A stretch of DNA of 64,000 nt from Acidobacteriota bacterium (lineage in GTDB: Bacteria; Acidobacteriota; Thermoanaerobaculia; Multivoradales; J023): positions 1 to 64,000 of the forward strand of contig JAJCXO010000095.1 of NCBI GenBank assembly GCA_029263395.1, in the 5' to 3' direction. Both the position numbers and the translations under genes were made by a program. Position 1 is the stretch's first letter. Each line of letters begins with the position of its first letter. Under the pieces are notes generated by a model. It was not told the DNA's origin. It saw only the letters and a program-made list of their open reading frames with translations, and did not search any database. Positions 2,285 to 61,538 of the stretch are shown here, piece after piece.

Positions 2285-5200
2285 TCAATTCCATCTCGAG
2301 GTGTCGCCAGTCTCGAAGCTGTCAGTGAACAGGGGTACATCGAGTCCAGCGTCGCGGGTCAGGTCAACAGAACCAGCTGTGTAGGGAAAACTAGCTGTGA
2401 TGCCGGTAAGGGGATCAACATCACTGTCGAGGGTGTCGTCGGAGCCCAGATCGAGAGGAGAAAACGTTGCGCCAGGCACCGGCTCCACTTCGATTCGATA
2501 CGACCCGCTGGCGACGTCGACGAAGCGGTAGATGCCGTTGGCATCTGTGACTTCGCTATCTACTTCGACGCCGCTGACATCGTCCAGCAGACGAACCGTG
2601 ACGCCGGCGACACCCGGCTCACCGAGGGCTTGGCGCCCGTCGCCATCGAGATCGAGCCAGACTCGATCCCCCAAGATGCCATTGCCGCCTCCAGGCGACC
2701 CTGCTGGACACGGCGAGAGCTCCGAGGTGTCCAGAGTCGTGAGGTTGGTGGCGGTGGCTGTTGGGACGGTGACGAAGTTGGGGGTCATGAATGCGAATGT
2801 GGCCTCACCGGCACCGTTTGTGGTGACTCCGACAGCGTCCAGATAGGCGTGGGCCTCGCCAAATCCACTGGGATCACAGGCCGGACTGTCGAATAGCTCG
2901 ATCAGGAACGAGGTTGACGGTGCCGCGGACAGGTCGCCACTGATGGTTGTCATTCCCCCGGTGCGGGTGACCGAGTCGATCGTTGGAAAATTCTGCAGGC
3001 GATTCGGACCAAAGTCCGGGTCATCGTCGTCGTTGGCGGTGGGGCCATCGGCAACCGGACTACCCCGAGTGAGGTCGATACCGAGCGCACCATTGTGTCC
3101 CAGGATATTGCGCGTCAGGCGGTTGCCCAAGGTGTTTTGCATTCCAGCGCTGGAGTCGAGATCGTGAATCCCGATACCGTTGCCGGTGTTATAGGCGATG
3201 TAATTGAGGGCGCCGGCTGGAGCTGTGCCACCGACGAGGGTGTCGCGTGATTCGACGATCCGCAAGCCATCGCCGTTGTTTCCGAGCGCTGGAAATCCCA
3301 GGAACCCGATACCGATCCTGTTGCCATAGATCCGGAAGTCTTCGGCGCCCTCGAGCAAGATGCCGTGGCCTCCATCCACGCCAGCGCCGTTGCCGATGAT
3401 GACATTGGCGCGAGAGTCGCGCCCACCGATGGTCCCGATGCTCGGGATGAGCTCCGATACTTTTTCGACATGAATGCCATGGAGGTCGTTGCCGAGCCCG
3501 CCCGCCCCTCCGATCCAATTGCCTTCGACCACGGTATCGATGGCCCCTCGAATGACGATGCCAGAACCTCCGAAACCTGCCGCATCAGCGATGTTCGCCG
3601 CGATCAGGTTGGTGGCAGCCCTGCTCACTCCGCCGATCAGGTTGCTGTCGGCTCCGTCGTCGATGAACACCCCAGCAAATCGGTTGCCAAGCCGTGCACT
3701 CCGGGAACTGTCGAGTCCGATCACGTTGCCCTGTACGAGATTGTTGTCGCCAGTCAGCCAGAGACCAATAATGGCATTGGCGGAAATCAGATTGCCCTCG
3801 CTGAAGCCGGTGCCTCCGATATCGTTGGCGTCGCCGTCGACGCGGATGCCGGGGCCACCATTGCTCATCGGGACCCGGCCGGCCAGGTCGGTGCCGATGC
3901 GGTTGTTGAACACTTCATTGTCGTTTGCCGTTGCGCCGAGTGCGATCCCTCCCACTGTATTGCCCGAAATCAGATTTCCGGCACCGGTGCTACCGATCCG
4001 GCCATCGTCTCCGCTGCTGGCGACGCCGCGTAGGTTACCCGCGGCGGTGAGGGTCGGGTCGACGCCAATGAGGTTACCCTCGAGAATGGTCCGGTCGCCC
4101 GTGATGGAGATTCCCTCGGTCGGAAAGCCGGTGATCGACAGGCCGCAGACCAGCACGTCGTCGCCGGAAATCGCGAGTCCTGGAATTACGCCTCCGCCGG
4201 AAAATGCCAGCTCGATCAGGGGCGTACCGATGAAACTCAGGTGGCTCGTCCCATCGAGGGTCACAGCTTCGGTAATCTCAATCGCGTCAGGGCCAATCAC
4301 TGCGAGCTCAAACGGCCCGGCACCTGCGAAGGCGAATTCGATAGCGTCTGGCCCAGCGGATTCGTTGGCTTGTTCAACCGCGGCACGCAACGTACAGATG
4401 CCGCTCGGATCAGGGGTGGTGGAGGTGTCACAGATCCCGTCGTCAGGATCGCCGTCGGCGCCGTCGAAGAGGGAGTTGACTCGGAAAGTGGCCGTCGACT
4501 GGCGATCGATCAGCTCGACGGCACCGTCCGTTCGGATCCGAAGTGTCGGAAACGTCTCGTCGGAGAAGCTTGCCCTGTCTGTGGCGGCCGCGGCCTGGTC
4601 AGTTGCCAGCAGTTGGACCGGGCGGTGTTCGAACGTCTCGTCGGAGAAGCTTGCCCTGGATGCATTCCAGCGTCCAGCTGCCAGCCATCGCTCGCCGCCA
4701 GCGTCGATTTGGAGGTCGACAGCCGGTGGAGACCCAGAATTGTCGAACCGACCCCAAGACACGGCGGTGATCGGAGAGGGCAAGTGGATGGTGTCAGGCT
4801 GGGCCAGCGGGTCGCCGAGAGGGCTGTGGTACACCTGGAGAAGATCTGTACCGTGATTGCCTTCCACGGCGACCAACACGTCGTCGAAACCATCGCGGCG
4901 ATCGATGTCTGCCACTTCGAGCAAACGTAGCGGGCCGGGCAGCTCGAGAACACCAGTCGGCCGCGTGGTTTCAGAGAAGGGCGCAGCGTACCAAACCAGA
5001 CTTGGTGCCCCGCGCTGGCCGACGAGCAGATCGAGCCTACCATCAGCATTCAGATCGACAGCTTTCAGGAAGTCCGGGCGGATCGCCAGCGGTATTGTTG
5101 AGTGGCTCTCGCTGTCACTCGGGCGGGGGGCAGGGTAGCAGGTGCTACCGATCGATCCCCTGCGGATTCTGAGGCGTGGGGTCCCAGGGTCGGCAATCTC

Positions 5201-5407
5201 GCCGATAGCGATTTGGAACGTGCCGGTGGCGTCGCGGTCCATCAGCGTTGTCGAGATGGCGCGCCAACCGTCCTCGGTTGGCAAGAGGGTTCGATGTTCG
5301 GGGCCTCGAGTATTCGAGGACGAGCTAGCGGCCGCCAATGAGGAGGCCGTCGAAGCAGTGAGTGTCAGGAGGAGTGTGAAGGTTGCCGAAACACGGAGCA
5401 GTGGCAT
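2285..5407 (-). CDS. Large secreted protein: FG-GAP-like repeats, CSLREA-like segment, parallel beta-helix, SdrD-B-like domain
   Basis: Predicted exported protein of 1040 residues. The start is the ATG at 5407, with AAAGGA nine bases upstream; the frame also extends 12 codons further. A signal peptide (MPLLRVSATFTLLLTLTAS...) is followed by VCBS/FG-GAP-like repeats (VDLNADGRLDLLVG, ADIDRRDGFDDVLVA), then a CSLREA-like segment (ICTLRAAVEQAN). About 400 residues of right-handed beta-helix repeats follow (GNLIG..., N-x-IGG...). A Cna-B/SdrD-B-like domain (DRVWLDLDGDGRQ) closes the protein. The last residues are LFTDSFETGDTSRWN, a tail shared with two other secreted proteins here. It is probably a surface or secreted carbohydrate-binding or adhesive protein; no catalytic site was recognised. 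An in-frame 27-bp direct repeat lies inside the gene. Confidence 0.85.
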   Translation of the reverse strand: MPLLRVSATFTLLLTLTASTASSLAAASSSSNTRGPEHRTLLPTEDGWRAISTTLMDRDATGTFQIAIGEIADPGTPRLRIRRGSIGSTCYPAPRPSDSESHSTIPLAIRPDFLKAVDLNADGRLDLLVGQRGAPSLVWYAAPFSETTRPTGVLELPGPLRLLEVADIDRRDGFDDVLVAVEGNHGTDLLQVYHSPLGDPLAQPDTIHLPSPITAVSWGRFDNSGSPPAVDLQIDAGGERWLAAGRWNASRASFSDETFEHRPVQLLATDQAAAATDRASFSDETFPTLRIRTDGAVELIDRQSTATFRVNSLFDGADGDPDDGICDTSTTPDPSGICTLRAAVEQANESAGPDAIEFAFAGAGPFELAVIGPDAIEITEAVTLDGTSHLSFIGTPLIELAFSGGGVIPGLAISGDDVLVCGLSITGFPTEGISITGDRTILEGNLIGVDPTLTAAGNLRGVASSGDDGRIGSTGAGNLISGNTVGGIALGATANDNEVFNNRIGTDLAGRVPMSNGGPGIRVDGDANDIGGTGFSEGNLISANAIIGLWLTGDNNLVQGNVIGLDSSRSARLGNRFAGVFIDDGADSNLIGGVSRAATNLIAANIADAAGFGGSGIVIRGAIDTVVEGNWIGGAGGLGNDLHGIHVEKVSELIPSIGTIGGRDSRANVIIGNGAGVDGGHGILLEGAEDFRIYGNRIGIGFLGFPALGNNGDGLRIVESRDTLVGGTAPAGALNYIAYNTGNGIGIHDLDSSAGMQNTLGNRLTRNILGHNGALGIDLTRGSPVADGPTANDDDDPDFGPNRLQNFPTIDSVTRTGGMTTISGDLSAAPSTSFLIELFDSPACDPSGFGEAHAYLDAVGVTTNGAGEATFAFMTPNFVTVPTATATNLTTLDTSELSPCPAGSPGGGNGILGDRVWLDLDGDGRQALGEPGVAGVTVRLLDDVSGVEVDSEVTDANGIYRFVDVASGSYRIEVEPVPGATFSPLDLGSDDTLDSDVDPLTGITASFPYTAGSVDLTRDAGLDVPLFTDSFETGDTSRWN
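4551..4658. repeat. 27-bp direct repeat, 81 bp apart, inside the beta-helix gene
   Basis: Identical 27-base copies at 4551-4577 and 4632-4658 encode RASFSDETF twice. The 81-bp period is a multiple of three, so the frame is kept. The segment between them (EHRPVQLLATDQAAAATD) looks low-complexity, as expected after a local duplication. Confidence 0.85.
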
Positions 5408-5522
5408 GAAGTAAGTCCTTTCGGGTTGTTCACTTCTCCTCAACTGACAGCGTCTGAGAATCGGTCGCTTAGGGCAGTGATGAGGGCCAAGATCGCCGTT
5501 TACGCTTGCTAAACTAGGGGCG

Positions 5523-8375
5523 GTGCGAGAGGATTTTTTACGGACGGTGCTGTTCCTGCTACTGGTTCTTTTCGCCAGCGTGTTCGGTTTGGGTTGGGGG
5601 GGACGATGGCTCGCAGAGGTTGGAGTGGAAACCGGTCGGCTGGCGCATGACTACGGCGAGTTGAAAGATGCCAGGCGGCTGCTCCGGTATGCGGGATGGC
5701 TGGCTCCAACTTCGATCGAAAACCACATCGCACGCCTCGAGCTCGAGCTGCAGGCCGGTGACTTTTATGCTGCGGAGCAATTGCAGAAGGAGCTTTCAAC
5801 CGAAGGTGTGGGAGTCGTGCGTGCTCGGCTCTTGACCGCTGCGGCAGGGGTCGACCTGGTTCGTTATCGCTACCGACAAGCGAGACGGCGAGCCCATGAG
5901 GCGGTGACTGCCGCGGTGGCGAGTGGCCAGCTGGCGGCTGAAGCTCGTGCGCTGGCGATGGCTGCCAAGGTGGAGATCGAGGGGGGTGGGGACGCACGGA
6001 TTGCTCTGGATCTCTTACAGAGGGCCCGCGACCGAGCCCGTGTATCCGGGGACGAGAGGCAGCGAGTCGAGGCTGAGGTCGAGATCGGTTTCGTCCGCTG
6101 GTGGTATCTGCGAGAGCCAGCTGATCGATTGCTGGAGGCCTTGCAACCCGCGGTCGAAGTCTTTCGACGCCTAGACGATCCCTCCGGCGTTGCTCGGATC
6201 CTCGATCGGATGAGTTTCGTCGAGTTGCGGCGTGACAATCTGGTGGTTTTTTTTGCAACTCAGAGACAAGCCCTGCAAATCTGGGAACGCTTGGGGAACC
6301 GTGCAGGGCAAGCGCAAGCCCATATGCAACTGGGATGGGTCTGGGGACGGTTGGAGAATCCACGGCGTGCGTTCCGTCACTTCGAACGAGCGCTCGAGTT
6401 GGCCGAGGCGTCGGGATTCGCCCTGCTGGTACCACGTATTCAGCGTTATCTAGCGTCGGCTGAGATCACCGGGGGACGTCCCGAGCGATCGGCGGCCCGA
6501 CTGGAGGCTCTGATCGCCGGCCCTGATCCTTGGGATCTAGAAGGTCGTTCGGTGTTCGGGGTCCTGGGGGATGCCCGGCGTAGGCTTCGCGAGTCCGCCG
6601 CGGCGCGTACTGCATATCAGCAAGCGCTCGAACTGGACCAAGCAGGTGATGTCCCGTTTCGGGTTTGGATCGGCTCGGGGCTGGCTCGTGTTGCGTTGCA
6701 GGATGGTGCGATTGGGCACGCTCGAACCTTGCTTACGGAGCTCGAAGAGTTGGTGGGTCCGCAGTCGGATTGGAGTGACCTCCGCCGGGTTCTGAATCTA
6801 CGAGCCTCGGTCTTGGAGGCGGAGTCGGGTCCAGCCGAGGCGTTGGCTCCATTGCTGGAAGCCGCCGAGATCGAAACCCGATCGCTCGGCTCGGTGGGGT
6901 TCTTGACCGTCGATTATGGACTCGGAGTGCTCAAGCGGTTATTGCCTCGTCTACTGGCATCTGAGTCTCGAGCCAGTGTCCGTGCGACTAGGGCTGCGGA
7001 GGCTTTCCGGCTGCTCGAACAGGCTCGCCTGCGACCGGTCCGCCAGCAAATGTTGACCCGCGCTACCGCGAGGGCAGCGACCATCTCGAACACGCCGACG
7101 GTGGAGGAGGCCGAGGCGTTGTTTGCGGCGCGCCAGGCTTCGGCGCGGGTGGCGACCGATCCGCCTCCGACAAACCTCGCCGAGCTCCGCGCTGCATATG
7201 CCAGTTATGAGGATGCTGCCTTCTGGGCACGATCTGGAAGTAGCTCGATCCAGTTGGGCCGAGTCGGCACGGTGGCTGAGATCCAAGAGCACCTGCCAGT
7301 AGGTACGACGATTATCTGTTATGTGTTGGTGCAACGGGTCGCAGTGGCTCTGGTGCTGCGGCACGATCATTTTGAAGCGGTACCCCTGCCCTTCGAGCCC
7401 GCGGAGTTGCGACCGCGGATCAAGATTCTGCGTCACCAGCTGGCTGTGCGTCGAGGAGACGGCTGGCGTAGCCCCGCACGCGAGCTCGGGCGCCTGCTGA
7501 TCGACCCGGTGGAGACGGTGGGTGGACTGGGAGATAGTGAGAGGCTATTCGTCGTGCCGATGGGGGAACTTCATGAACTGCCTTTTGCCGCGTTGCTGGA
7601 TAGCGAGGGGCGCTCGTTGATCGAGCGGGTTGCTGTCGGGGTGCTACCTGCCGCGAGCGCGCTACTGGATTCTACGCCACGGGCTTCCGGGCCCAGCCTG
7701 GTGATGGGCCGGGATCAGTTTCGAGAGCTTGCGATGCCAGATTTGCCAGCTGCGCGGCGGGAGGCGCAGGCGGTCGCTCGGGCTACGGATGCGCGATGGA
7801 TCTTCGGCTCGGATTCCAACGAACAGACGTTTCGGCAGCTGGCCCCCGGTGCATCGCGTCTCCACATTGTGGCCCATGCCCGTTCGGTACCTGAGATGCC
7901 GCTGTTGTCGGGACTTGTCTTGGCTCCACCGCAGGGCTCGGGTGATCCGGCGTCAGACGGTGAGCTGACCGTGCAAGAGCTGTTGGCGCTCGAATTGCGA
8001 GCCGAGTTGGTCACGCTTAGCGCTTGTCGTAGTGGTTTGGCTTGGCCGGCCACCCGGCTGCGGGCACCGGAGCTGCGTCGGACCGGTCTGGTGGAAGGTT
8101 TCTTGTTGGCCGGCGCTCGCAATGTGTTGGGCACGTTGTTGTCGGTCGAGGATGAAGCTACCGCTGACTTCATGATCGCGTTCGAGGATGCCTTGGGTCG
8201 GTACCCGCCGATCGACGCATTGGCTCAGGTGCAGCGGACGCTGGCTGGGGGGGATGGTGCGGCTGCACACCCCGGGCATTGGGCGGCCTTTGTTCTGGCC
8301 GGTCCAGGGACCTTCTCCGGTACAGAACAGTATCGACCGACCCTTTCCGGCGCGATGTCTGTTGAAGTCGACTGA
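5523..8375 (+). CDS. Membrane-anchored TPR-CHAT caspase-like protein (module A)
   Basis: A 950-residue protein starting at GTG 5523. Residues 7-27 form a hydrophobic segment (TVLFLLLVLFASVFGLGW) that probably anchors the protein with the rest outside the cytoplasm. Helical TPR-like repeats span roughly residues 40-480, including a clear unit near HMQLGWVWGRLENPRRAF. The C-terminal CHAT domain (about 560-935) has the caspase-like dyad: HIVAHA (H785) and LSACRSG (C835). CHAT proteins are clan-CD cysteine proteases, of which separase and Craspase TPR-CHAT are known members. The sigma factor and anti-sigma genes follow on the same strand, which suggests the protease acts in their signalling. It is divergent from the beta-helix gene, with a 115-base promoter region between them. 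Confidence 0.88.
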   Translation: MREDFLRTVLFLLLVLFASVFGLGWGGRWLAEVGVETGRLAHDYGELKDARRLLRYAGWLAPTSIENHIARLELELQAGDFYAAEQLQKELSTEGVGVVRARLLTAAAGVDLVRYRYRQARRRAHEAVTAAVASGQLAAEARALAMAAKVEIEGGGDARIALDLLQRARDRARVSGDERQRVEAEVEIGFVRWWYLREPADRLLEALQPAVEVFRRLDDPSGVARILDRMSFVELRRDNLVVFFATQRQALQIWERLGNRAGQAQAHMQLGWVWGRLENPRRAFRHFERALELAEASGFALLVPRIQRYLASAEITGGRPERSAARLEALIAGPDPWDLEGRSVFGVLGDARRRLRESAAARTAYQQALELDQAGDVPFRVWIGSGLARVALQDGAIGHARTLLTELEELVGPQSDWSDLRRVLNLRASVLEAESGPAEALAPLLEAAEIETRSLGSVGFLTVDYGLGVLKRLLPRLLASESRASVRATRAAEAFRLLEQARLRPVRQQMLTRATARAATISNTPTVEEAEALFAARQASARVATDPPPTNLAELRAAYASYEDAAFWARSGSSSIQLGRVGTVAEIQEHLPVGTTIICYVLVQRVAVALVLRHDHFEAVPLPFEPAELRPRIKILRHQLAVRRGDGWRSPARELGRLLIDPVETVGGLGDSERLFVVPMGELHELPFAALLDSEGRSLIERVAVGVLPAASALLDSTPRASGPSLVMGRDQFRELAMPDLPAARREAQAVARATDARWIFGSDSNEQTFRQLAPGASRLHIVAHARSVPEMPLLSGLVLAPPQGSGDPASDGELTVQELLALELRAELVTLSACRSGLAWPATRLRAPELRRTGLVEGFLLAGARNVLGTLLSVEDEATADFMIAFEDALGRYPPIDALAQVQRTLAGGDGAAAHPGHWAAFVLAGPGTFSGTEQYRPTLSGAMSVEVD

Positions 8376-8547
8376 GAGCGTGTTCGACGATGCACGAATT
8401 GACGATACGCAATGAGTGTGGTTTATGGATGGAATCCTCGAATTTGGCAAGCAGTTGTCGGGCCGGCGGCGTTGGACAGCGAAGGGTCTCGGTAGGGGGT
8501 CGCAACTGGAGGTACAACGCGCCGGGGAAGGGCCACCATGGTCGACG

Positions 8548-9372
8548 ATGATGCTGAACCGAACGCTCTCTGACGATGCGTTGCTGAAACTCTTTCGTCG
8601 TCGCCCGGATCGGGCTTGGCGGATCTTTTTGGATCGATATTCCGGGCGCATCATCGGACAGTTGCGGGCCCTGGGTCTCGACCGCGACGAGGCGATGGAC
8701 GGTTTTGTGTTCGTCTGTGAACGTCTCGCCGAGGATGGTTTCCGTCGCCTGCGCCAGATTCGGCACACCGGCCAAAAGGGCGAGTTGGTGCCGTGGTTGC
8801 GACAAGTGGTGAAGCACTCGGCGATCGATTGGGGATGGTCGCAAGACGGTCGTCAGCGGCTCTTCCGCTCTGTGGCGGCTTTGGGCGAGCTCGATCAGCG
8901 GGTGTTTCAGTTGCATTTCTGGGCTGGGCTCAAGCCCGCTGCGATCGTCGAAGCCCTGCGTGCCGAGGGTGAGTTCAAGGGGCATTCGTTTGAGGTTTTC
9001 GATGCCCTCGAACGGGTCTTCGAGTGCCTGGACGCAGGGCAGCGGTGGCGGTTGCTCAGTCAGCTTTCCAAGCGCCGAACGAGCCGATCGATCGACGGCA
9101 TCGAGACGGACAACGGAGTCCCGTGGGAGCCGATCAGCGTCGCCCCTGATCCCGAGGCTGCGTTGCTGAGAGCTGAACAGAGGCAAGTTTTAGATCAGGC
9201 GGTGGCCGGTCTTGCGGCGCGTGATCGGCTGATCTTTCGCCTGCGTTACGATGATGGGTTGTCACTGGCCGACATCGCGGCGGTCGTTTCCGTCGGTCTA
9301 ACGACAGTGAAGGCTTCTCTGCGCACCAGTCGAACGGTGGTGCGCGGTGCCTTCGGAGAGGTAGCACAATGA
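8548..9372 (+). CDS. Sigma-70 family (ECF-like) sigma factor, module A
   Basis: A 274-residue protein if started at the ATG at 8548. The frame is open back to a GTG at 8416, but that extension is not sigma-like. Region 2 is visible (LLKLFRRRPDRAWRIFLDRYSG, then GELVPWLRQVVKHSAIDW). Region 4 is at the C-terminus (ARDRLIFRLRYDDGLSLADIAAVVSVGLTTVKASL). Oddly, a second region-4-like stretch lies between them (ELDQRVFQLHFWAGLKPAAI), making the protein longer than most ECF factors. The stop overlaps the anti-sigma ATG (ATGA), so the two are translationally coupled. It presumably directs RNA polymerase to target promoters when released by its anti-sigma factor; the targets are unknown. Confidence 0.82.
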   Translation: MMLNRTLSDDALLKLFRRRPDRAWRIFLDRYSGRIIGQLRALGLDRDEAMDGFVFVCERLAEDGFRRLRQIRHTGQKGELVPWLRQVVKHSAIDWGWSQDGRQRLFRSVAALGELDQRVFQLHFWAGLKPAAIVEALRAEGEFKGHSFEVFDALERVFECLDAGQRWRLLSQLSKRRTSRSIDGIETDNGVPWEPISVAPDPEAALLRAEQRQVLDQAVAGLAARDRLIFRLRYDDGLSLADIAAVVSVGLTTVKASLRTSRTVVRGAFGEVAQ

Positions 9373-10049
9373 GTGCAAAACGCTTTGAACGTAAGGCACT
9401 GCCTGCACGTCCTCGGTCGCCGGAGCATGTGGCCGAATATCAGCACCGATTGGATGCCTACCTTGCGGCAGGGCTGACGGAGTCGGAACGTACTGAGCTC
9501 GAGGAGCATCTGGCGGATTGTCCAGCATGTCGTCATCGCCTCGTCGCCTTGCGCATTGAACATCAGGAGGCAGCGATGGTCGCAGCGCCGAGTGCTGAGG
9601 CTCGCGCACGTGCTTTGGCGTTAGGCGGTGAGCCCTCCCAAACCCGTCGTATCGGGCTATTGGCTGCCGGTTTAGCGATGGTGGTGCTTGGTGGTGGGCT
9701 GTGGCTGAGAACGTCTGGGCCGGCCCGAATCAGTGAGACCAATCCAGACCTTCCTGGCTCAGTCTTGCGATTGGAAGACGTGGCTATGACGCTCGAGTTG
9801 TCATCTCCGGTTGATGGAGCCGTTTTGGAGCTCGGGCCGGTCGAGATGCAATGGACTCCTGTTGTCGACGTCGTCAGCTACCGTTTGATCATCCTCGATG
9901 CGGCGGGGGTGCCGTTCGAAGAGCATCGCACGGAAGACCCGCGCTGGGTATGGCAGGGGCGATTGGGCGTCGCCTTCTGGTATGTCGAGGCCGAGCTCAC
10001 CGACGGAACCCGGATCGAGTCGGAGCCGCATCAATTCGAGATGCGGTGA
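9369..10049 (+). CDS. Zinc-binding transmembrane anti-sigma factor, module A
   Basis: A 226-residue protein whose ATG overlaps the sigma stop by four bases. The N-terminal cytoplasmic part has the ZAS/zf-HC2 motif H-x3-C-x2-C (EEHLADCPACRHRL; H47, C51, C54), known to bind ECF sigma factors. Residues 95-113 (IGLLAAGLAMVVLGGGLWL) form one membrane helix. The remaining 110 residues look like a beta-sandwich (SPVDGAVLELGPVEMQWTP...SYRLIILD), predicted to be periplasmic. A membrane-spanning anti-sigma with an external domain is a classical target of regulated proteolysis. The CHAT protein of the same operon is predicted to sit on the same side; cleavage by it is inference. Confidence 0.87.
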   Translation: MSAKRFERKALPARPRSPEHVAEYQHRLDAYLAAGLTESERTELEEHLADCPACRHRLVALRIEHQEAAMVAAPSAEARARALALGGEPSQTRRIGLLAAGLAMVVLGGGLWLRTSGPARISETNPDLPGSVLRLEDVAMTLELSSPVDGAVLELGPVEMQWTPVVDVVSYRLIILDAAGVPFEEHRTEDPRWVWQGRLGVAFWYVEAELTDGTRIESEPHQFEMR

Positions 10050-57318: not shown

Positions 57319-58149
57319 TCAATCTGAAGGCTGGCCGTTGAATGGCGTAGCTGAACTTTCAGCCAATAGACGAAGAGTGAGTTGATGCACCTGTCGCTTG
57401 CCGCCAGCCGCCAGCACCTTCGCTGGATCGTCTCCCGGCTCGAGCTTGATCTCCACTGGCAGCTCAGCGCGCCAAGCGATGCCCACGAAAACCTCGTAGA
57501 CGCCGAGCTCCGATCCCACCAGATCCGATGCCAGCGCCGAGAAAACAACCACTCCTCGGCGTTGCTCGATCTTCAAGCGGTCGCCGATCGGTAGCCTTTC
57601 GAGCTGTTGCCCGAGTTGCCGATACAAACCGACCTCGACGCCATCGATGGCATCCTCGGTGACCGTCGCAGTGATCTTCACCCGCGAGTCGACGTAGGCT
57701 TCGGCAGTCAGGCCTGGTGTTGCCGCATCACGACGGTCGGTCAACGCCTCGAGCGACACCTGGTAGGCGGGGGGGGACGACGTGGGCTGCCAGACCAACC
57801 AACTGAGGGTGACGACCAAGAGGACAGCCGCCGCAGCCGCCACCAGAGGTTGCCAAAAGCGGCGAGCAGGGATCAGAGGGACGGATCGAATGGCGGCATC
57901 GAGCACTCGGTTTCGGGTAGCGTTGGACGCATCGGCGGGAGTGGCTCCAGCGATCGCTTCGAGTCGGCGACGGTTGGCCTGATTGCGGACCAACAGGCGT
58001 TCGACATCGCTGGCTTCCGCGTCGGTCAAGTCACCGTTGCGATAAGCCTCTAGGGTCGACTCGGCTACCAGCGTGTCATCCAACGCTTTCCCTTCGGCGA
58101 GCTCGCTCAATGCCCAATAGATCTGCTCTCGGTCGTCAGGTTGCATCAT
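57319..58149 (-). CDS. Anti-sigma-like single-pass membrane protein, module B
   Basis: A 276-residue protein starting at ATG 58149 (a second ATG follows directly). Residues 30-65 (STLEAYRNGDLTDAEASDVERLLVRNQANRRRLEAI) have the helical outline of an anti-sigma N-terminal domain but lack the His and Cys ligands. The stretch WQPLVAAAAAVLLVVTLSWLVW (residues 99-120) is the membrane helix. The 155-residue C-terminal part is beta-rich and predicted periplasmic (YQVSLEALTDRRDAAT, VYEVFVGIAWRAELPVEI). Order and topology match module A's anti-sigma, but zinc is not used. It lies 12 bases after the CHAT stop. Confidence 0.75.
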   Translation of the reverse strand: MMQPDDREQIYWALSELAEGKALDDTLVAESTLEAYRNGDLTDAEASDVERLLVRNQANRRRLEAIAGATPADASNATRNRVLDAAIRSVPLIPARRFWQPLVAAAAAVLLVVTLSWLVWQPTSSPPAYQVSLEALTDRRDAATPGLTAEAYVDSRVKITATVTEDAIDGVEVGLYRQLGQQLERLPIGDRLKIEQRRGVVVFSALASDLVGSELGVYEVFVGIAWRAELPVEIKLEPGDDPAKVLAAGGKRQVHQLTLRLLAESSATPFNGQPSD

Positions 58150-58161
58150 TCATCTCTTCGC

Positions 58162-60954
58162 TCAACCTCTGGTAGTCACCACGAGTTGGTTTTTGCCCTC
58201 GTCTGCCGTACCGAGAAGCGTCAAGTTGGACCAAGCCGCCGCAGGATAGTTCGAACGGAGGTTGGCTAGAGCCGTCCGAAAGGCATCCACCACCCCGCTA
58301 CCGGCCTCGATCTGGCGATAGAAGACATCATTGAAGTCGTGTCCAAGGTCATCTTCGATGGCCGATTGGTGGGCAATGACCCAGCGTGTGCCGCGCCGGG
58401 ACAAGACTCCGGCCAGTCCATCGTTACCGCTGCCGCCGGTTGGCCTCGAAAAACCCGTATGACAACCACTGAGGTTGGCAAAATGAAGCGGGCCGGCCAG
58501 TTTGGCTAAATCACCCAGGCTCAAGTTGGTGTCGGCCATCCCGAGGCTCGAGAGCTCCGGGAAAGCTTTGTCATATTCACCATGTGCGTCCACGTGGAGA
58601 AAGGACGCTGCCGGGAGTGCCGCCTGCACTGCCTGGGCTGAAGCTTCGTCACCAAAAAGGATTTTTGCCGCCGGGAAACGCCCGCGATAGGTGTCGCGAG
58701 CCTCGGTGCCACTCGGCAGGTTGCGCCTCGGATCGACGACAAACAGAGGGGCTGCGAGGGCCTCGTCATACCGCGGAGTCCCTGCTTCGACGAAGGGAGG
58801 GCGTACCACTGCGGTGGTCACGTCGGCGAGCCAGCGGCGACCGTCTCCAGGGGGGATCGGCAAGGCGGGTAGCGGTACTCGTTGCAACACGCCATGGAGG
58901 GCAAAGTGGCTGATGACCCCCAGGCTCTCTAGATTCTTGGGCAACAGTGCGTCGGCGAGCGGCTGTGCCAGGGCTCGCCAGGCCTCGTCGTTCAGTCGGC
59001 CGTTGCGTTGGGCCTCGGCAAGCTGCTCGATCCGATGATTCAGTTCGCTGCGGGGAAGGCTGGTGCGTTGGGCTTCCAAGCTGCCATCCGACGATCGCCA
59101 CAGCGAGATGACCTCGTTGTCGAGGGCGAAGACGCGTAAGTCTGCGGCCACGGGCGACGCTTGGAGTGGACTGCGGCAGGCGGCGAGCAGGACGCGCTGG
59201 AGTTCGGTCAGGGACTGCAGCAACGCACGTCGAACGGGGGCAACTTGCTGCTGGCGTCGAGGCGCGAGGGGAGGCTCGGTCCAGGCGAGTTGGGACAGCA
59301 AGTTGTGTCGTCTGCTCTCGACGCGCTGGATATCCGGGCTTGTCCTACCGTCACAAGACTCGCTGAACTCGACGGTGGATGCGTCCAGCGCCTCCAAGAG
59401 CAGCCAAGCGTGGTCGGGATCATCCCGTTCGATGGCGACGCGAGCGGCGCGATAACTGTCGTCGACACGGTGTCCCGGCGCGGTGGGGCGGCCAAGCCCA
59501 GCGGAGTCTGGAACCGCCAGGGCATGATGGAGGATGGCTTGATCGAAGGCTGCTGCCGCCGCGTCGAGCTCGCCCCGTAGACGCTCGGCTCGACCGACAC
59601 AGCTCCAGCCGCGAGCAGCGATACGGGGTGCTGCCAGAGCGGCCGCCGCGCAAGACTCGATAGCACTGGCCGCATCGCCGGCAGCCAGCGCCGCGAGGCC
59701 TGTAAAAGCGTGGTGCCAGGCCTGCAGATTCTGTTGCCGGGCGCCGGGCTCCAGGCCCGCCAAGATCGACCCGGCCTCGTCGAGCGCTGAGCCTGGATTT
59801 TGGCCCCGCCGGATGGCGAGGAACGCCGCGTTGAGCCGTTGGTTGGCGCGTTCCAAGTTGTCGACGGTGCCGCCGGTGTCGCCGGTGTCGCCGCTGTCGC
59901 CGGCGGTCGCGAGGCTGTCCTCGGCGCGGCCGAGATCTTGGGCTGAGGCGTCTGGATCATCCAATAGCCGCCAGCCAAGGAGTTGGTGTGCCGGGGCAAC
60001 TAGACTCTGGCGGCACACACCGGTCTGGCATTCGTCGAGGGCAGCCTGCAAGCGATCGATCGAGTCTCTGCCGGCTCCGAGCCGTCCGAGGATCTCGGCC
60101 TGAAGCATGATGACGCCCAAGCGTTCGACCGCCACCACTTGTCGAGTCAGCTCGTCGGCCTCGGACAGCAGCTGCCAGGCGCGTCTCGTCTGTCCCTCCC
60201 TGAGCGCCAGCTTGGCCCAGTTGCGCTTTAGTTTGGCGTTGAGGACCGCGGCAGCGGGCTGCGTTGACCAGGTCGGCGCGGCGTCCAGCCGTTGCCGGAT
60301 CTCAGCGTGAGCTTCATCGGATCCTTCGCTGAAGAGCGGACGGAGTGTTAGCAGACGCAAACCAGCGCCGACCAGTGGATAGCCGCGTTCGGTCAGGCCG
60401 GAAGCCTGCTGCTCGAGCGTGCTGAGATTGTCCTCGTTCGTCTGCTGTAGGAATAAGCCGACGGTACGATTGGCGGCGGCGAGCACCTGCTTGAAGTCGG
60501 AGTCATTGGCATCGAAGGCGACCCGGAAGCAAGGCAGCCGATAATGATGATTATTGAAGCCGTCCCGTAGGGTGGCGCAAATTTCCAAATCCGATGTCGA
60601 CTGCAGGGTGGTCGGCGGTGTTTGAGTGAAGCATGAGGTGGTGCCGGCTTGCAACCGTGGCTCGGTGAACTCGGTGCTCAGCCGGCCCGGGAACGTCAAC
60701 CGGACTTGCCACTGGCTAGTATCGATTTCGATCGGCGTATCGAGGCAGAGGCCGATCGGTTGAGCGTAGCCGAACCATTTGGGTTTTAATGTCCCATCGT
60801 CGAACACAACCACATCCTGGTTGCCGCGGAGGGCGTAGCTGATGCCCGCTGGCGGTTCTTCGAGGGTGGGTTCGCTGTCGTTGCAGGCGATGAACAACAA
60901 CCAGAAGGCTGTCCCCAAGTACGCTCGCGTGGCATTGAAGCTCCAGAGGCTCAT
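58162..60954 (-). CDS. Lipoprotein TPR-CHAT caspase-like protein (module B)
   Basis: A 930-residue protein whose ATG overlaps the sigma stop (ATGA). The N-terminus AYLGTAFWLLFIACNDSEP has a lipobox (FIAC), placing the protein at a membrane outside the cytoplasm. After a beta-rich segment, helical TPR-like repeats run from about residue 170 to 530. The CHAT domain (about 620-925) has the dyad HVDAHGEY (H791) and LSGCHTGF (C831). The N-terminal half is a different build from module A's. A GDTGDTGG-type repeat from 9-bp DNA units lies near residues 350-362. It is operon-linked to sigma, anti-sigma-like and subtilase-like genes. Confidence 0.88.
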   Translation of the reverse strand: MSLWSFNATRAYLGTAFWLLFIACNDSEPTLEEPPAGISYALRGNQDVVVFDDGTLKPKWFGYAQPIGLCLDTPIEIDTSQWQVRLTFPGRLSTEFTEPRLQAGTTSCFTQTPPTTLQSTSDLEICATLRDGFNNHHYRLPCFRVAFDANDSDFKQVLAAANRTVGLFLQQTNEDNLSTLEQQASGLTERGYPLVGAGLRLLTLRPLFSEGSDEAHAEIRQRLDAAPTWSTQPAAAVLNAKLKRNWAKLALREGQTRRAWQLLSEADELTRQVVAVERLGVIMLQAEILGRLGAGRDSIDRLQAALDECQTGVCRQSLVAPAHQLLGWRLLDDPDASAQDLGRAEDSLATAGDSGDTGDTGGTVDNLERANQRLNAAFLAIRRGQNPGSALDEAGSILAGLEPGARQQNLQAWHHAFTGLAALAAGDAASAIESCAAAALAAPRIAARGWSCVGRAERLRGELDAAAAAFDQAILHHALAVPDSAGLGRPTAPGHRVDDSYRAARVAIERDDPDHAWLLLEALDASTVEFSESCDGRTSPDIQRVESRRHNLLSQLAWTEPPLAPRRQQQVAPVRRALLQSLTELQRVLLAACRSPLQASPVAADLRVFALDNEVISLWRSSDGSLEAQRTSLPRSELNHRIEQLAEAQRNGRLNDEAWRALAQPLADALLPKNLESLGVISHFALHGVLQRVPLPALPIPPGDGRRWLADVTTAVVRPPFVEAGTPRYDEALAAPLFVVDPRRNLPSGTEARDTYRGRFPAAKILFGDEASAQAVQAALPAASFLHVDAHGEYDKAFPELSSLGMADTNLSLGDLAKLAGPLHFANLSGCHTGFSRPTGGSGNDGLAGVLSRRGTRWVIAHQSAIEDDLGHDFNDVFYRQIEAGSGVVDAFRTALANLRSNYPAAAWSNLTLLGTADEGKNQLVVTTRG
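59867..59909. repeat. 9-bp repeats encoding a Gly-Asp-Thr stretch in the module B CHAT gene
   Basis: CGCCGGTGT and near-copies follow each other four times between about 59870 and 59909. They encode GDSGDTGDTGG between TPR-like helices. Repeats of this size can change in copy number without breaking the frame. Confidence 0.7.
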
Positions 60955-61538
60955 GACACCGCAAGTTCCAACGTTTCGATACAGGCGTCGAGTGCTGAGT
61001 CGAGGGTCTGTTTGAGCTTGTAGGTCGCCTTCTGAGACCAGCCCGTGATGTGGGCTATCTCAGCCGGCTTGTGGCCGTCACGGTAACGCAGCTGAAAATA
61101 TAGCTCTAGGCGGTGGCCGCTCTGTGACAAACAGGCGGCGAGTCGCTCGAGCGCATCCCGTGCCAGGGTCAGCCCTTCCTCACGATCAGTAGATAGCGTC
61201 AGACTATCGATCGGTGCGGAAGGATGACGCAGCAGAGAACGTCTGCGATTCGATGCGATACCGCAGGCTGCACCCCAGAGGAAGTTCTCCAGATCCTGGG
61301 CCATCGGCTCACTACCGGAGTGGCGTTGGCGAAACCGATCCAGGACCTGGCCCTCCTGCTTTAGAGCGTAGAGGAATGTGTCTTGCACCAGATCTTCGGG
61401 ATCAAGCCCTTGGGTGCCAGCGAAGCGCAGGCCAAGACGGCGCAACAGCCGAGGTGCGAAGGTATCGTAGAGCCAAGCCACCGCCTCGCGGTCACCCGAT
61501 AAGATTCTCGAGATTGCCGCAAGAATCGATTCAGACAT
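60951..61538 (-). CDS. ECF sigma factor, first gene of module B
   Basis: A 195-residue protein with ATG 61538. Region 2 is GDREAVAWLYDTFAPRLLRRLG...LDPEDLVQDTFLYALK, and region 4 is SGHRLELYFQLRYRDGHKPAEIAHITGWSQKATYKLKQ. Between them the linker (SAPIDSLTLSTDREEGLTLA) is typical of ECF factors. The stop overlaps the CHAT ATG, so the sigma factor and the CHAT protein are translationally coupled. It probably controls its own operon and others, held by the membrane protein encoded third in the operon. It is not close in sequence to module A's sigma, which points to convergent assembly or very old divergence. Confidence 0.88.
   Translation of the reverse strand: MSESILAAISRILSGDREAVAWLYDTFAPRLLRRLGLRFAGTQGLDPEDLVQDTFLYALKQEGQVLDRFRQRHSGSEPMAQDLENFLWGAACGIASNRRRSLLRHPSAPIDSLTLSTDREEGLTLARDALERLAACLSQSGHRLELYFQLRYRDGHKPAEIAHITGWSQKATYKLKQTLDSALDACIETLELAVS

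Follow-up and report, generated by a model that had tools for sequence, protein, structure and literature searches.

Two described systems stand closest to the locus reported here. In CRISPR type III-E, the TPR-CHAT protease Csx29 cuts Csx30 and thereby frees CASP-sigma (PMC10028731; here and below, papers cited by accession are drawn on in the parts available to us), and DdvA is an anti-sigma factor which itself carries a CHAT part. Here we describe three genes of an Acidobacteriota bacterium (assembly GCA_029263395.1), at positions 5523 to 10049 of the first 64,000 nucleotides of contig JAJCXO010000095.1 (this whole stretch is called the window), which encode a TPR-CHAT protein with a predicted membrane anchor, a sigma factor and a zinc anti-sigma factor. 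The neighbourhood of CHAT, sigma and anti-sigma genes goes beyond chance, and we lean, by a little, towards the explanation that the CHAT protein cleaves the anti-sigma factor and so frees the sigma factor. Because of the two precedents, a cleavage of the anti-sigma factor outside the membrane is taken as the likeliest event. The features of the locus are the following:

5439 to 5466, plus strand: candidate promoter CTCAACT-N14-ATCGGTC in front of the CHAT gene (sequence match in two genomes)
5523 to 8375, plus strand: TPR-CHAT protein, 950 amino acids (aa), GTG start (open reading frame, Pfam; AlphaFold2 model with a predicted local distance difference test score, pLDDT, of 89.4)
5532 to 5591, plus strand: predicted N-terminal membrane anchor or signal segment, residues ~4-23 (hydropathy, model helix)
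7470 to 8303, plus strand: CHAT (caspase-like) domain PF12770 (profile match)
7875 to 7877, plus strand: codon of the catalytic His785 (invariant in the alignment)
8025 to 8027, plus strand: codon of the catalytic Cys835 (invariant in the alignment)
8416 to 9372, plus strand: sigma factor of the extracytoplasmic function (ECF) type, 318 aa, with region 4 at 9184-9324 (open reading frame, Pfam, NCBIfam)
9369 to 10049, plus strand: zinc anti-sigma factor, 226 aa, ATGA overlap with the sigma gene (open reading frame, Pfam)
9435 to 9533, plus strand: zf-HC2 domain of the anti-sigma factor with His47, Cys51 and Cys54 (Pfam)
9648 to 9713, plus strand: transmembrane (TM) helix of the anti-sigma factor, residues 94-115 (AlphaFold2 model, hydropathy)
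9714 to 9797, plus strand: juxtamembrane linker of the anti-sigma factor, residues 116-143, of low confidence and probably disordered, with the Arg134 codon at 9768-9770 (pLDDT)
9798 to 10046, plus strand: FN3-like extracytoplasmic domain of the anti-sigma factor, residues 144-226 (AlphaFold2, Foldseek)

An earlier note on this DNA, made from the letters alone, had read three same-strand genes with a four-base overlap between the sigma and the anti-sigma gene, and the coordinates of the three open reading frames (5523-8375, 8416-9372 and 9369-10049, all on the plus strand) agree with it, the overlap being ATGA at 9369-9372. The sigma protein is recognised by region 4 (Sigma70_r4_2, PF08281, residues 257-303, E 1.2e-10, 41.3 bits against a cut-off of 25.7) and by TIGR02937 (57.1 bits, cut-off 42.9). 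Its region 2 is divergent: no Pfam model matched it, and a single NCBIfam model matched at residues 49-138 with 27.3 bits, far under the cut-off of 226. The third protein carries a zf-HC2 domain (PF13490, residues 23-55, E 4.7e-8, 33.4 bits against 22.2) of the HxxxCxxC form and its gene adjoins the sigma gene, as is characteristic of zinc anti-sigma (ZAS) factors. The AlphaFold2 model of this protein consists of helices at 18-84, the TM helix at 94-115 and a beta sandwich at 144-225 with pLDDT of ~97, which is FN3-like according to Foldseek; the linker at 116-143 is modeled with pLDDT of only ~57-65. The one membrane helix and the external domain that had been read from the letters are thus reproduced in the model. 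PADLOC returned zero matches for the CHAT, sigma and anti-sigma proteins.

The TPR-type helices of the CHAT protein extend to about residue 570 (TPRs were also matched by Pfam) and the CHAT domain occupies residues 650-927 (E 1.2e-52 to 1.6e-53; 179.6 bits against a cut-off of 24). H785 and C835, which the note had named as an intact dyad, are indeed invariant in all 35 aligned proteins. Among the sigma-linked CHAT proteins both residues are kept in 92 of 93, and the remaining one runs off its contig. The hydrophobic N-terminal segment (residues 5-23, mean Kyte-Doolittle hydropathy 2.41; a helix at 2-20 in the model) upholds, as a prediction, the claimed membrane anchor. Judging from this anchor and from the basic N-termini of the orthologs as assessed by eye, the CHAT domain probably faces the outer side of the membrane. 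The solved structures nearest to the AlphaFold2 model are those of Csx29, with VIA Z reaching 30, separase, with Z reaching 27, and DdvA. The last (8rot) is aligned over both TPR and CHAT with Z 22.7 across 610 residues, and a sequence alignment shows both His and Cys in DdvA. Plain TPR proteins without CHAT also score Z of ~24, hence part of the structural score comes from TPR; the separase rows are confined to residues 480-934 (Z 26-27, root-mean-square deviation ~3 over ~300 residues of the CHAT half) and therefore these rows carry the evidence for the CHAT fold. No solved CHAT relative came up when phmmer was given the CHAT protein or its domain as a single query, but profile searches did find such relatives.

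The own genome of the window (G000, 10.68 Mb) holds 42 CHAT matches, 119 matches to sigma region 4 and 18 to zf-HC2. For the named loci, the reverse search, the dyad and the topology sets described in this text, CHAT was counted with a profile of residues 650-927 only, so that TPR-only proteins were not taken as CHAT. A sigma gene lies within three genes of 22 of the 42 CHAT genes when a sigma profile built for this analysis is used, and with the Pfam tables only, 15 of the 42 are found within 4 kb of a sigma domain (4.2 expected). The excess is specific: at 2-4 kb upstream of CHAT and on its strand there are 9 sigma domains against 0.47 expected in the own genome, and 15 against 0.59 in the relative G006, which has 45 CHAT and 134 sigma matches. 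Only 6 of the 18 zf-HC2 domains are within 5 kb of a CHAT domain, therefore anti-sigma factors in general do not follow CHAT. In 34 of 79 CHAT loci of named genomes, from Acidobacteria, Chloroflexi, Rubrobacter, Modestobacter, Bacteroidota and elsewhere, a sigma gene lies at most three genes away; the 79 were picked for likeness to this CHAT group, and many are on short contigs.

The gene context was further followed around the four longest CHAT matches outside the own genome among the matches listed for 39 other genomes. The order CHAT-sigma-anti-sigma is kept in G001 (60% identity to the CHAT protein), it is sigma-anti-sigma-CHAT in G021, and in G006 the sigma pair is on the opposite strand, one gene away from CHAT; G002 is taken up below. 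Several further loci have the order sigma-anti-sigma-CHAT, two of them (L106 and L109) with four-base overlaps of the anti-sigma and CHAT genes. The earlier note had called the three genes one unit, which is right for the module of the window, but the order varies between genomes and the sigma pair of G002 is distant from CHAT. Its proposed check, a survey of other genomes for CHAT genes that adjoin sigma/anti-sigma pairs, came out strongly positive, counting G006, the named genomes and the search described next.

The association was also approached from the side of the anti-sigma factor. A profile (A4) built from 11 CHAT-adjacent anti-sigma factors was run on 59 genomes of the order, and 40 loci were taken from the top of the match list, excluding nine already-collected loci and two partial rows. 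A CHAT domain was found within 4 kb in 32 of the 40 loci; as the profile was built from CHAT-linked members, this result means that this family of anti-sigma factors belongs with CHAT, not that all anti-sigma factors do. Seven long anti-sigma reading frames of 331-460 aa (L238, L239, L243, L247, L252, L258 and L234) were considered as sigma/anti-sigma fusions and rejected, since a sigma reading frame in another frame overlaps each of them and the extra N-termini are read as out-of-frame. Separately, at L256:4045-4824 a single reading frame joins sigma region 2 directly to the TM helix, linker and FN3 cap; this may be an assembly chimera (the genome is in 1080 contigs), and it was counted among the 40 loci and given no weight.

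In three loci the part consisting of TM helix, linker and FN3 domain is fused to a receiver domain (L261:7895-8908, L262:7515-8492 and L266:1105-2163). The receiver was identified as Response_reg (PF00072) in L262 (E 3.6e-20) and L266 (E 7.8e-18), and was assigned in L261 by likeness to L262. A CHAT gene lies 0.94-2.8 kb from each of these fusion genes, and a hybrid histidine kinase and an OmpR-type regulator, both named by eye, adjoin them. Two of the loci, L261 and L262, come from one genus (g15), therefore at least two independent lineages of the receiver swap are represented, not three. Of all the observations, this swap, in which the cytoplasmic part is replaced and the linker, the cap and CHAT stay, speaks most for a direct connection of CHAT with the external half of the anti-sigma factor.

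Two comparisons address whether the partners vary together. The first used 72 sets of CHAT, sigma and partner, the partners being picked by position alone and those of at least 400 aa (for example the L156 subtilase) being left out; gene starts in these sets are mechanical and the rows are related. In the pooled sets a hydrophobic CHAT N-terminus occurs together with a TM helix in the partner in 38 cases, the mixed classes hold 4 and 14, and neither is present in 16 (Fisher 1e-4). A lipobox-like motif is found in CHAT of three of the four own-genome sets which have a TM partner but no hydrophobic call for CHAT. The second comparison used pairwise distances across 15 own-genome triplets: CHAT and sigma distances are correlated (rho 0.41, P 0.001), as are those of the TPR part with the anti-sigma factor (rho 0.28, P 0.001), the TPR part with sigma (rho 0.23, P 0.037) and CHAT with the anti-sigma factor (rho 0.19, P 0.036).

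From the observed genes, dyad, recurrent neighbourhood and correlated divergence, and from the predicted folds and topology, we infer a signalling switch that is one-way. In it, the zinc domain of the anti-sigma factor would hold sigma in the cytoplasm; the anti-sigma factor would span the membrane once, with its FN3-like cap outside on a flexible linker, and the TPR-CHAT protein would be tethered to that membrane from outside. The TPR superhelix would sense a signal and turn the caspase-like site on, as in Csx29, and CHAT would then cut the external part of the anti-sigma factor, most probably in the 28-residue linker. Housekeeping site-2 proteases of the RseP/M50 type (five M50 peptidase matches are present in the genome) together with cytoplasmic proteases would complete the degradation and set sigma free, perhaps to drive its own operon. 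Such later proteolysis is probably needed in this module too, since the N-terminal fragment of Csx30 still binds sigma in vitro after cleavage (PMC9729208). Proteolysis fits the kept dyad, the Csx29-like fold and the portable TM-linker-FN3 part.

Several of our results speak against cleavage of the anti-sigma factor by CHAT and have to be set beside this scheme. In the own genome, 20 of the 42 CHAT genes lack a sigma gene within three genes, and the CHAT ortholog of G002 (34% identity) has none in the 18 kb examined, the sigma/anti-sigma pair of that genome being found on the same contig ~20 kb away. Eight of the 40 anti-sigma loci lack CHAT within 4 kb: in two the domain lies at 5.8 and 7.6 kb, and in six there is none in the stretch examined, although one of these (L242) holds a TPR protein cut by the contig end. 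The dyad is equally kept in CHAT proteins without a sigma link (71 of 72), thus its conservation argues for enzymes in general. Taken set by set, the covariation of topology does not reach significance, and it may reflect lineages: in the order both, the two mixed classes, neither, the counts are 13, 1, 4, 1 for the own genome (P 0.47), 9, 0, 1, 1 for the relatives (P 0.18), 5, 2, 4, 13 for the named loci (P 0.06) and 11, 1, 5, 1 for the anti-sigma loci (P 1.0). Distances of sigma and anti-sigma across the 15 triplets are not significantly correlated (rho 0.15, P 0.067). The Asp that gives separase its specificity for Arg at P1 is absent as well: D2151 of separase, the reader of the P1 Arg, corresponds to K670 of Csx29 (PMC9729208), and the alignment through this residue places Ala881 of our CHAT protein at that position. 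Asp877 had been considered as the counterpart and was ruled out by the same alignment. Finally, by analogy, DdvA would be compatible with sensing that involves no cutting in trans.

Within the linker, one residue was considered as the cut site. Most clan CD families, including separase, cleave after Arg (review PMC4357240). The linker contains Arg134, which is aligned in 51 of 51 FN3-type proteins, and a hydrophobic-Arg-small motif is found in 30 of 40, where shuffles predict 15.9. The 51 of 51 is weakened by the tendency of alignment programs to place Arg residues on top of one another. As the cut site Arg134 is further weakened by its conservation in loci with no CHAT nearby, by the lack of motif enrichment outside the FN3 class of ectodomain (9 of 17, with 6.6 expected), by the failure of the motif as formulated to match the anti-sigma factor of the window and its closest ortholog, and by the replacement of the P1-reading Asp by Ala881. 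Therefore Arg134 is a weak candidate only.

One would argue that CHAT is not the protease of the anti-sigma factor but its sensory partner, which binds the FN3 cap outside and relays the signal by conformation, as a split version of DdvA. DdvA is known genetically as an anti-sigma factor inactivated by an external signal (PMC4374960), and its solved chain is a CHAT protein (PDB 8rot/8rw5). However, a mere binding fold would tolerate loss of the catalytic residues, and 92 of 93 sigma-linked CHAT proteins retain both, as does DdvA by alignment, so we hold this arrangement to be unlikely.

A second alternative places CHAT at the output: sigma would drive its own operon, and the CHAT effector would cleave other proteins of the envelope. 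The sequence CTCAACT-N14-ATCGGTC stands upstream of CHAT in the window and in the G001 ortholog, where the surrounding DNA is poorly conserved, and neither genome has a second exact match; allowing one mismatch adds 10 matches in the own genome, where the reversed control gives 2. ECF promoters have the form of an AAC element and a CGTC-like element, which this candidate resembles. It fits an operon driven by sigma itself, to which the two related genomes lend weak support. ECF sigma factors often control their own operons (PMC10028731), a CHAT protease can activate gasdermin (PMC9729208), and the 20 of 42 CHAT genes with no sigma gene would also suit an effector. Against this output role, the TM-linker-FN3 part is kept beside CHAT even where a receiver domain forms the cytoplasmic part, and the gene order varies, CHAT being sometimes on the opposite strand. 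We therefore consider that CHAT has little chance of being just the output of the sigma factor. Divergent to the CHAT gene, at 2285-5443 on the minus strand, lies a gene whose 1052-aa product matches FG-GAP, beta-helix and SdrD_B; it is a possible sigma target, and no homolog of this protein was found in the stretches around the orthologs (L101-L104).

That chance, or co-inheritance through a few duplications that carried neighbours along, assembled these loci from numerous sigma and CHAT genes is very improbable: both families are expanded (119 sigma region 4 and 42 CHAT matches) and paralogous modules are not independent events, but the excess is strand- and distance-specific in two genomes, the loci are spread across several phyla, the same three parts occur in different gene orders, and the reverse search gave 32 of 40.

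A second module is present in the window at 57319-61538 on the minus strand, with a sigma factor of 195 aa, a CHAT protein of 930 aa whose N-terminus is lipobox-like, and a protein of 276 aa that has one TM helix. A resembling order is found at C262 and C39 of the same genome.

If cleavage of the anti-sigma factor by CHAT is accepted, a broader generalization can be put forward tentatively, though we would not yet bet on it. Exported CHAT proteins would be the dedicated site-1 proteases of a large and much-duplicated class of sigma pathways, in which the partner CHAT cuts a portable membrane-linker-FN3 cassette whose cargo is a zinc anti-sigma domain or a receiver. Craspase, where the switch was captured by an RNA-guided effector, and DdvA, where it was fused into one chain, would then be special cases of an older stand-alone switch. 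Were this true, caspase-like proteases would be everyday signal transducers of the bacterial surface, beyond death and CRISPR defence and with many parallel pathways per genome. It might also explain where the CHAT/sigma arm of Craspase comes from, and it would give a substrate to many CHAT proteins with no assigned target. Additionally, the three genes and one proposed cut would make a ready experimental system for regulated proteolysis started by a caspase fold.

The idea that CHAT cuts an anti-sigma factor is less new than it seems, with precedents in CASP, DdvA and ECF54. Like the window, the locus of Csx29, Csx30 and CASP-sigma combines a TPR-CHAT protease with a His-Cys dyad, a sigma factor and a sigma inhibitor, and its protease has the nearest solved fold (PMC10028731, PMC9729208). 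In contrast to it, the CHAT protein of the window is predicted to be membrane-anchored and probably outside, its inhibitor is a zinc anti-sigma factor with a TM helix and an FN3 cap, and it reaches only 25.3 bits with the Csx29 NCBIfam model, the cut-off of which is 300. DdvS/DdvA of Myxococcus xanthus likewise unites an ECF sigma factor with a transmembrane anti-sigma factor that has a CHAT part (titles of PDB 8rot and 8rw5; PMC4374960). There, going by the PDB title and molecule name, a single chain of 991 aa holds both the anti-sigma and the CHAT part, whereas here two genes encode them and the anti-sigma factor has its own FN3 cap; the HxnCxxC motif is absent from all listed CHAT reading frames.

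In the ECF54 group, CHAT genes stand in a conserved ECF sigma context and proteolytic control has been proposed; it differs in gene context, being described, in the available part of the source, with subtilase and carboxypeptidase neighbours and without an anti-sigma factor (PMC8999054), whereas the window has one of the zf-HC2 type. Our sets with neither a CHAT hydrophobic segment nor a partner TM helix, which are mostly named Acidobacteria, Chloroflexi and Rubrobacter loci, recall this context, as an S8 subtilase is next in three scanned clusters of this type (L138, L146 and L156). Two ECF54-like clusters also contain a protein of 212-233 aa with a zinc-anti-sigma-like N-terminus as judged by eye (L146:9156-9791 and L196:9083-9784; the former has a weak CarboxypepD_reg match), and this protein may be the anti-sigma factor that ECF54 reportedly lacks. 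The TRADD-N/EACC2 neighbourhoods share a caspase-fold protein, an ECF sigma factor, a TPR protein and a proposed transcriptional output, and differ by their EACC2, TRADD-N and DUF1822 domains, anti-sigma factors being unmentioned in the available part of the description (PMC8195603).

In the RseA/DegS/RseP and RsiW cascades a membrane anti-sigma factor is similarly cut by a first protease and then by others, which frees sigma (PMC10028731). Unlike there, the first protease of our module would be a caspase-like cysteine protease. In CalpL/CalpT/CalpS, too, a protease reportedly frees a sigma factor by cutting its inhibitor. This type III CRISPR system has, in the part of its description at hand, a Lon protease of another fold, which cyclic tetra-adenylate activates through a SAVED domain. 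No description of stand-alone exported modules of CHAT, sigma and zinc anti-sigma was found in the literature searched, which covered few subscription papers. New relative to this literature are the exported stand-alone form with a zinc/FN3 anti-sigma factor, its strong duplication within one genome, and the swap of the zinc domain's place to a receiver domain.

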